DNA of 64,000 nt from a bacterium. GTDB lineage: Bacteria > Bacteroidota > Ignavibacteria > Kapaibacteriales > UBA2268. Both the position numbers and the translations under genes were made by a program. The stretch spans positions 1 to 64,000 of the forward strand of contig JANJTB010000007.1 of NCBI GenBank assembly GCA_024711295.1. The letters run 5' to 3'. Positions 37,247-38,090 of this stretch are shown one piece after another. Position 1 is the stretch's first letter. The number at the start of each line of letters is the position of its first letter. Under the pieces are notes generated by a model. It had not been told where the DNA came from. It did no database searches and saw only the letters and a list, made by a program, of their open reading frames with translations.

Positions 37247-37648
37247 TTATACCATGTGTATAACATGTTTGACAACACCTTGTATCTCAAATTGCCAAAA
37301 AGGCATAATCTCTATTGGCAAAAACTTCTCATTAGCCGAAAAAAGATAAACCTTACCTTCAATTATTCTGTATGTTTTTACAGCCATTTCACCATTTAAA
37401 GCTGCAATGACAACTTTTCCGTCTTTGGGTGTTTCATTTCTATTTACTACAAGAATATCACCATTGAAAATACCTTCGTTAATCATACTTTCACCAGTAA
37501 CTCTTACCAAATATATGTCATCAGGGTTAGGTGCAAGAGTACTGTTCAGGTCGAGCATTTGAGTATCGCTCGTTTTTACGTTTGCCGCTAACAATGGTGC
37601 CTCGAAGCTGAAAATAGACTTCAGCTCGACTACTTTTTTTACTTTCAT
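37247..37648 (-). CDS. UmuD-like S24 protein with intact Ser-Lys dyad but no usual cleavage site
   Basis: This 133-aa protein is a LexA/UmuD-type peptidase domain without a DNA-binding domain. Ser54 is in VRVTGESMINEGI and Lys91 in EMAVKTYRI, the 37-residue spacing of UmuD. The segment that should hold the Ala-Gly or Cys-Gly scissile bond, 15 residues before DLN, reads PL (residues 18-19), and no Gly is nearby. So the protein should be a protease that cannot cut itself at the usual place. It lies 13 bp after a paralogue with the opposite defect and 10 bp before rtcB. Confidence 0.85.
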   Translation of the reverse strand: MKVKKVVELKSIFSFEAPLLAANVKTSDTQMLDLNSTLAPNPDDIYLVRVTGESMINEGIFNGDILVVNRNETPKDGKVVIAALNGEMAVKTYRIIEGKVYLFSANEKFLPIEIMPFWQFEIQGVVKHVIHMV

Positions 37649-37661
37649 TGCTTGGTCTTGG

Positions 37662-38090
37662 TTATAGTGAATGTATAATTTTTGTTACAGTGCCAATTAT
37701 TTCGAACTCAAGCTCACCAATTTGTGTTGGTAAAAACTGATGATTATGTGATTCGAGAAATACTTCGCCATTGGCTGTACGAATTACCTTAACTGTAAGA
37801 ATATCACCTAACTTTGCAAGTACTATTCGTCCGTCAACCGGCTCGATTGATGAATCTACCACTAATATATCACCATCTCGGATGCCAACATGAACCATAT
37901 TGACGCCGGTAACTCTCGCAAAAAAAGTTGTTGCCGGATGATCAACCAAAAATTCATTTAGGTCAACCTCATGCTCCAGGCCTGACTCAACCGGTATGGG
38001 TATTCCTGCTGCAACGGATACCTCAAACATTACCATTTTGGTGGCACTGCTGTCGCTTGGTTTAAACGACATTAATTCAATAATTTCCAT
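37662..38090 (-). CDS. UmuD-like S24 protein with cleavage site but Ser replaced by Asn
   Basis: This 142-aa UmuD homologue has VAAGIPIP with the scissile Ala28-Gly29, the UmuD-like DLNEFLVDHPATTFF, and Lys101 in LTVKVIRT. The catalytic serine position is Asn64 in VTGVNMVHVGI, exactly 37 residues before Lys101. It should therefore be unable to cleave itself but able to serve as a substrate. It begins the operon that continues with the active paralogue and rtcB. No umuC is in the window. A sequencing error is unlikely to give this alone, because GESM and GVNM differ at more than one residue. Confidence 0.85.
   Translation of the reverse strand: MEIIELMSFKPSDSSATKMVMFEVSVAAGIPIPVESGLEHEVDLNEFLVDHPATTFFARVTGVNMVHVGIRDGDILVVDSSIEPVDGRIVLAKLGDILTVKVIRTANGEVFLESHNHQFLPTQIGELEFEIIGTVTKIIHSL

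Follow-up and report, generated by a model that had tools for sequence, protein, structure and literature searches.

Two adjacent UmuD-like genes of an uncultivated Kapabacteria family appear to divide a UmuD-type switch into substrate and protease

The 64,000-nucleotide window analyzed here, positions 1 to 64,000 of contig JANJTB010000007.1 (contig C5 of the 3.4-Mb Kapaibacteriales assembly G000, a Kapabacteria-like metagenome-assembled genome, GenBank GCA_024711295.1), encodes on its minus strand two neighboring UmuD-like proteins, P1 (ORF 37662-38090) and P2 (ORF 37247-37648), of which the first keeps the scissile bond of UmuD next to a missing catalytic serine and the second keeps the catalytic Ser-Lys dyad next to a missing scissile bond. 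We propose that P2 probably cuts P1 in trans and that the two genes are the halves of a divided UmuD-type switch placed in one operon. The initial annotation of this DNA had likewise read the genes as a dedicated protease and its substrate, an interpretation that is partly supported, its core being largely right and its details wrong. The pair represents a novel form of the UmuD/S24 switch. The sequences show its conservation, the complementary residue pattern, the polarity of its evolution, and purifying selection acting on P1 proteins that have lost catalysis, and the division of UmuD into two neighboring genes seems to be conserved across dozens of species of an uncultivated Kapabacteria family. 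The features of the pair and the basis for each assignment are listed below.

37662..38090, minus strand: P1, UmuD-like protein of the substrate type, 142 amino acids (open reading frame and translation, Peptidase_S24 match, orthologues, clade)
37247..37648, minus strand: P2, UmuD-like protein of the protease type, 133 amino acids (open reading frame and translation, Peptidase_S24 match, orthologues, clade)
37649..37661, minus strand: operon-like spacer of 13 bp from the P1 stop to the P2 start (sequence)
38004..38009, minus strand: scissile Ala28-Gly29 of P1 (conservation in P1 orthologues and site rates)
37899..37901, minus strand: Asn64 of P1, occupying the position of the catalytic Ser (orthologue residue states and site rate)
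37788..37790, minus strand: Lys101 of P1, the general-base Lys, kept in the window P1 (orthologue residue states)
37487..37489, minus strand: catalytic Ser54 of P2 (conservation in P2 orthologues and site rate)
37376..37378, minus strand: catalytic Lys91 of P2 (conservation in P2 orthologues and site rate)
37595..37606, minus strand: Phe15-Glu16-Ala17-Pro18 (FEAP) of P2, where other UmuD proteins carry V-x-A-G (orthologue alignment)

The coordinates of both minus-strand reading frames were given correctly in the initial annotation, and each residue that it singled out (Ala28-Gly29, Asn64, and Lys101 in P1; Ser54 and Lys91 in P2) matches the translations, which read ...VSVAAGIPIPVESG...VDLNEF...VTGVNMVH...LTVKVIR... 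for P1 and ...FSFEAPLLAANVK...LDLNST...VTGESMIN...MAVKTYR... for P2. The motifs of P1 are V26-A-A28-G29-I-P31, DLN45, G62-V-N64-M, and T-V-K101, and those of P2 are F15-E-A-P18-L19, DLN35, G52-E-S54-M, and A-V-K91, with the claimed equality of spacing borne out in both intervals (37 residues from 64 to 101 as from 54 to 91, and 19 from 45 to 64 as from 35 to 54). The placement of Pro-Leu at the former site of P2 stands in a gapless alignment, but its exact register is undefined, the length between FEAP and DL(N) being variable in relatives. Taken alone, P1 has a cleavage site and lacks the serine, P2 has the dyad and lacks the site, and neither combines in a single chain what self-cleavage takes.

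Both proteins match Peptidase_S24 (PF00717) as their only Pfam family, at 84 bits for P1 and 81 bits for P2 against a cut-off of 23.3, and the closest solved structures in the PDB are UmuD and UmuD', with Foldseek grouping the fold with UmuD', UmuD-RecA, and LexA. The NCBIfam UmuD model NF007621 is the top match of both at scores below its curated cut-off (104 and 97.9 vs. 110 bits), the HumD model NF051876 gives 48.7 and 40.9 bits against a curated cut-off of 120 bits, and the winged-helix DNA-binding domain of LexA (PF01726) was found in neither protein. A 160-sequence tree places the P1 proteins in one clade and the P2 proteins in another, each supported at 100/99, with the canonical UmuD sequences sampled falling outside both.

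Profiles of the two proteins were run on 123 genomes of the order and recovered P1 orthologues in 38 and P2 orthologues in 37, the latter made up of 36 of the 54 genomes in the family and one genome (G044) of a sister family; the pair picked out in the initial annotation is kept as a pair across the whole family. The proteins co-occur with one copy of each per genome, nearly always adjacent, and both are set apart from canonical UmuD by a score gap, with P1 at 178 bits or more vs. 155 or less and full-length P2 copies at 157 bits or more vs. 138 or less. Mismatches between the two distributions come down to G077, where the locus meets a contig end, G014, which is 76% complete and holds a fragmentary P2, and G032, which has ambiguous bases. 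With 38 distinct P1 and 35 distinct P2 orthologue sequences, an artefact or a chance pattern is ruled out. Named relatives bearing the pair are mostly metagenome-assembled genomes labelled Ignavibacteriae, Kapabacteria, or Kapaibacterium, the last placed in Bacteroidota. A Kapabacteria-type pair is also present on contig JAGXRP010000035.1 (L038), labelled Desulfobulbaceae and 96% identical to L037 across the pair region, and this genome is probably mislabelled or misbinned. Gene neighborhood was dropped as a clue to function: no neighbor is conserved across the 21 context loci, the commonest being an RNase HI-like gene in 5 of them.

The residue states of the distinct sequences, counted after removal of duplicates, show how the two proteins complement each other. 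Ala-Gly is present in 38/38 P1 proteins within an entirely canonical arm, [P]-[LF]-[FY]-x-x-S-V-x-A-G-x-P, with the catalytic Ser position taken by Ser in 8, Asn in 8, Ala in 10, Met in 4, Asp in 3, Glu in 3, and Phe in 2, and the Lys position by Lys in 26 and Arg in 12, all of the latter in Ser-less sequences. P2 is the mirror image: Ser and Lys are both present in 35/35 sequences and V-x-A-G-x-P in none of the 35, nearly all of which carry [FY]-E-A-P-[LVI]-x-x-A in the site region (F30/Y5, E34, A32, and P30 by position). The complementary pattern claimed for the two genes is supported, the site being invariant in P1 and never canonical in P2, and the dyad being invariant in P2 and decaying in P1. 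Constant coupling of a Ser-to-Asn change in one gene with a missing site in the other, proposed as a test in the initial annotation, does not hold strictly, as Ser is kept in 8 of the 38 P1 proteins, that of the outgroup included.

Site rates reproduce this division. Among the 142 positions of P1, ranked from the slowest, V26 is 1st, A28 4th, G29 20th, and P31 24th, with the Ser site a fast 112th; among the 133 of P2, Ser ranks 2nd and Lys 13th; and in canonical UmuD (150 positions) all four residues are slow (A 1, G 21, S 3, K 9). Across clades in which every P1 is dead, a total branch length of 6.9 substitutions per site has passed with zero changes at A28 or G29, and in five close P1 pairs, of which four consist of two Ser-less proteins, the ratio of nonsynonymous to synonymous substitution rates (dN/dS) is 0.02-0.08. 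Catalytically dead P1 is under strong purifying selection and is not decaying. These observations bear on the simplest alternative, ordinary gene duplication with relaxed constraint and merely coincidental complementary defects: the different ways in which different lineages have lost the Ser of P1 would fit it, but it is already contradicted by the dN/dS values, by the near-perfect co-occurrence of P1 and P2, and by rate profiles that run in opposite directions precisely at the functional residues, and we regard it as extremely implausible.

The phylogeny also indicates in which order the defects arose. Parsimony requires at least 5 changes of the P1 Ser, and an outgroup-rooted tree allows up to 11 losses if the residue was never regained, an approximate figure given that some splits are weak. 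In the outgroup family (G044) a fully intact P1 lies beside a P2 already devoid of its site (L017/L046), which suggests that duplication was followed by loss of the site in P2, after which P1 was at liberty to lose catalysis. That the defects do not always co-occur, with Ser still present in 8/38 and Lys in 26/38 P1 proteins, leads to the same view, namely that the dedicated protease was probably the earlier innovation, with P1 catalysis being lost gradually and on repeated occasions.

Alternatively, P1 could be an uncleaved pseudo-UmuD that retains Ala-Gly for a structural or binding role, acting in a nonproteolytic heterodimer that manages polymerase traffic. Pseudoproteases are commonly regulators, and the whole arm of P1 is kept beyond Ala-Gly itself, including what we take to be the place of the clamp-binding motif in E. 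coli UmuD. The S24 fold nevertheless tolerates loss of the dipeptide, both in every P2 and in dead UmuD-like proteins of Chitinophagaceae with T-G, so that Ala-Gly is not a structural need; furthermore, such a role leaves the invariant dyad of P2 unexplained, and we consider it distinctly improbable. The Chitinophagaceae proteins (L110, L111, and L113) combine T-G with Ser-to-Ala and Lys-to-Arg replacements and are apparently non-cleaving UmuD proteins, one of which (L111) is encoded directly upstream of umuC.

Another alternative keeps the cut but assigns it mainly to a different S24 protein, either canonical UmuD or a repressor, leaving P2 as a regulatory partner or as a protease for other targets. 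The window genome and many relatives do have an intact canonical UmuD, and UmuD-like proteins are capable of trans cleavage (PMC5342242). G049 offers a comparable arrangement, with a dead UmuD beside umuC, retaining Ala-Gly and carrying Arg at both catalytic positions, and an unlinked intact UmuD-like protein (L278 and L277), possibly an independent case of trans processing. We examined every S24 protein of selected genomes, including G019 (99% complete) and G035 (92%), in both of which P1 is dead with Ala at the Ser position. No S24 protein with both a cleavage site and a Ser-Lys dyad was found in either genome, the remaining ones, P2 included, being without a canonical-type Ala-Gly site, and any cut of P1 there would consequently have to occur in trans; G021 is alike except that its P1 has Ser. 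All three genomes keep the pair and yielded no canonical UmuD, P1 is constantly accompanied by P2, and the P2 dyad never varies; this argues against another main cutter, an explanation that we rate as unlikely.

The same genomes speak to the output of the switch. The initial annotation had remarked on the absence of umuC, and none is indeed present in or near the P1-P2 operon, but a single 424-residue umuC that adjoins no umuD is found on contig C2 of G000, together with a third, canonical UmuD of 157 residues on C32, with Ala-Gly, Ser, and Lys all present, and RecA on C10. The Y-family polymerase model PF00817 has no match in G019, G021, or G035, all of which bear the pair, and DNA polymerase V (Pol V) therefore cannot be its sole output; G029 likewise gives no PF00817 match, but its assembly is also without RecA and is not counted as evidence. 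Finally, a search for the LexA domain PF01726 gave no match in G000 or in most genomes of family f1.

In light of these results, the mechanism that we infer, covering cleavage, heterodimer formation, RecA dependence, and the downstream partner of P1, has a dedicated S24 peptidase, P2, with an intact Ser-Lys dyad and an N-terminal arm of its own devoid of a scissile bond, and a substrate, P1, whose active site would be free to decay. The two would pair via the UmuD dimer fold, and upon encounter with a RecA-single-stranded DNA (RecA:ssDNA) filament the arm of P1 would enter the P2 active site and be cut between Ala28 and Gly29, setting free P1' (residues 29-142) with new partner properties, its downstream partner presumably being UmuC where present. 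P2 would not be consumable by self-cleavage and, more speculatively, one P2 could process several P1 proteins by subunit exchange, with FEAP, where Pro follows Ala, serving as a non-cleavable arm that fills the P2 cleft until displaced. We further consider it possible, though somewhat short of probable, that the pair is an obligate, RecA-controlled UmuD-like heterodimer of a protease that does not consume itself and a dedicated substrate, and that in some lineages lacking a Y-family polymerase it represents damage signalling separate from Pol V.

The trans cleavage of E. coli UmuD on which the initial annotation relied is borne out by an engineered heterodimer: UmuD S60A, which lacks the Ser, is cut efficiently in trans by UmuD18, whose arm is too short for cleavage and whose active site is intact, in RecA:ssDNA-dependent heterodimers (PMC5342242). 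By analogy, we suggest P1-P2 as a natural counterpart of this engineered pair. AlphaFold2 models of two natural in-frame pairs (L037 and L049), with the stop codon treated as a residue only so that each pair could be folded as a single chain, give predicted template modeling (pTM) scores of 0.68 and 0.72, the linker and the arm of P2 being disordered; set against our own estimate that unrelated domains with equal disorder would score near or below 0.5, these values lend weak support to some relative placement of the P1 and P2 domains.

It is also important to note the observations that weigh against cleavage of P1 by P2. Canonical UmuD (C32) of the window genome could also cut P1, and the 8 P1 proteins with Ser could still self-cleave; in 8 P2 proteins an Ala-Gly dipeptide occurs in the variable loop, where, devoid of its V and P neighbors, we judge from the sequence that it is not a cleavage site. 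In genus g4 (G005 and G029) P1 and P2 lie on separate contigs, and the operon is thus not essential, and only the best of the five models of each AlphaFold2 run is reasonably confident. No description of such a pair, and no experiment on its cleavage, dimerization, or RecA dependence, was found in the open literature, subscription papers lying mostly outside that search.

Like E. coli UmuD/UmuD', the S24 peptidase and Pol V subunit, the pair features the same fold, a dimer-type S24 domain, an A/C-G arm site, Ser-Lys geometry, and, probably, trans-cleavage capacity; unlike it, with site and dyad in one protein encoded with umuC, the pair is split between two clades with no adjacent umuC. It shares with UmuD S60A/UmuD18 one subunit without Ser and another without a cleavable arm (PMC5342242), but is natural and family-wide where the latter is a laboratory construct. 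LexA and phage CI repressors also possess an S24 domain and undergo RecA-stimulated cleavage at Ala-Gly, but P1 and P2 lack their DNA-binding domain. UmuDAb of Acinetobacter and the noncanonical LexA of Bacteroidetes are S24 proteins with DNA-damage roles in LexA-less bacteria, yet are self-cleaving single proteins with DNA-binding domains (PMC4807011, PMC8565304), and HumD, a phage UmuD' homologue, is a UmuD-like protein outside umuDC, from which P1 and P2 are separated by the NCBIfam HumD cut-off.

LexA, CI, and UmuD are the textbook self-cleavers, and a natural division into cutter and target would, if true, show a route to a protease-substrate pair, offer a clean system in which to compare cis and trans UmuD cleavage, and uncover a module of the damage response in bacteria mostly without classical LexA. 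Its evolutionary steps can be read as a series from the intact form in the outgroup and the recurrent losses of Ser.

Further S24 proteins of the family display Ser and Lys with no visible Ala-Gly (L299, L300, L301, L304, L305, L313, and, on G000:C33, L004), among them a type of about 210 residues with a helical-looking N-terminal region, and may act either as additional dedicated proteases or as sensors that do not cleave. At G000:C25 (L005), C39 (L006), and C33 (L004) a small gene is directly followed by a separate S24-domain gene, and at least one of the three small genes resembles a helix-turn-helix regulator, an arrangement reminiscent of phage-type repressors likewise divided between two genes.

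Upstream of P1, most genomes of the family carry a poly-G element, T-Y-Y-GGGGGG-A with 5-7 G, on the same strand and 9-220 bp before the gene, sometimes twice (loci L009-L030 and L151-L201, e.g., L013:2106, L024:1996 and 1932, and L159:796 and 992). It is absent from the P1-P2 operon of the window genome, and was rejected as a regulon marker, its occurrences elsewhere in eight genomes lying mostly inside genes with no regulon found. Copies close to P1 could be ribosome-binding sites, and in genus g21 one copy lies within an inverted repeat, TTCTGT-TCGGGGGG-ACAGAA.
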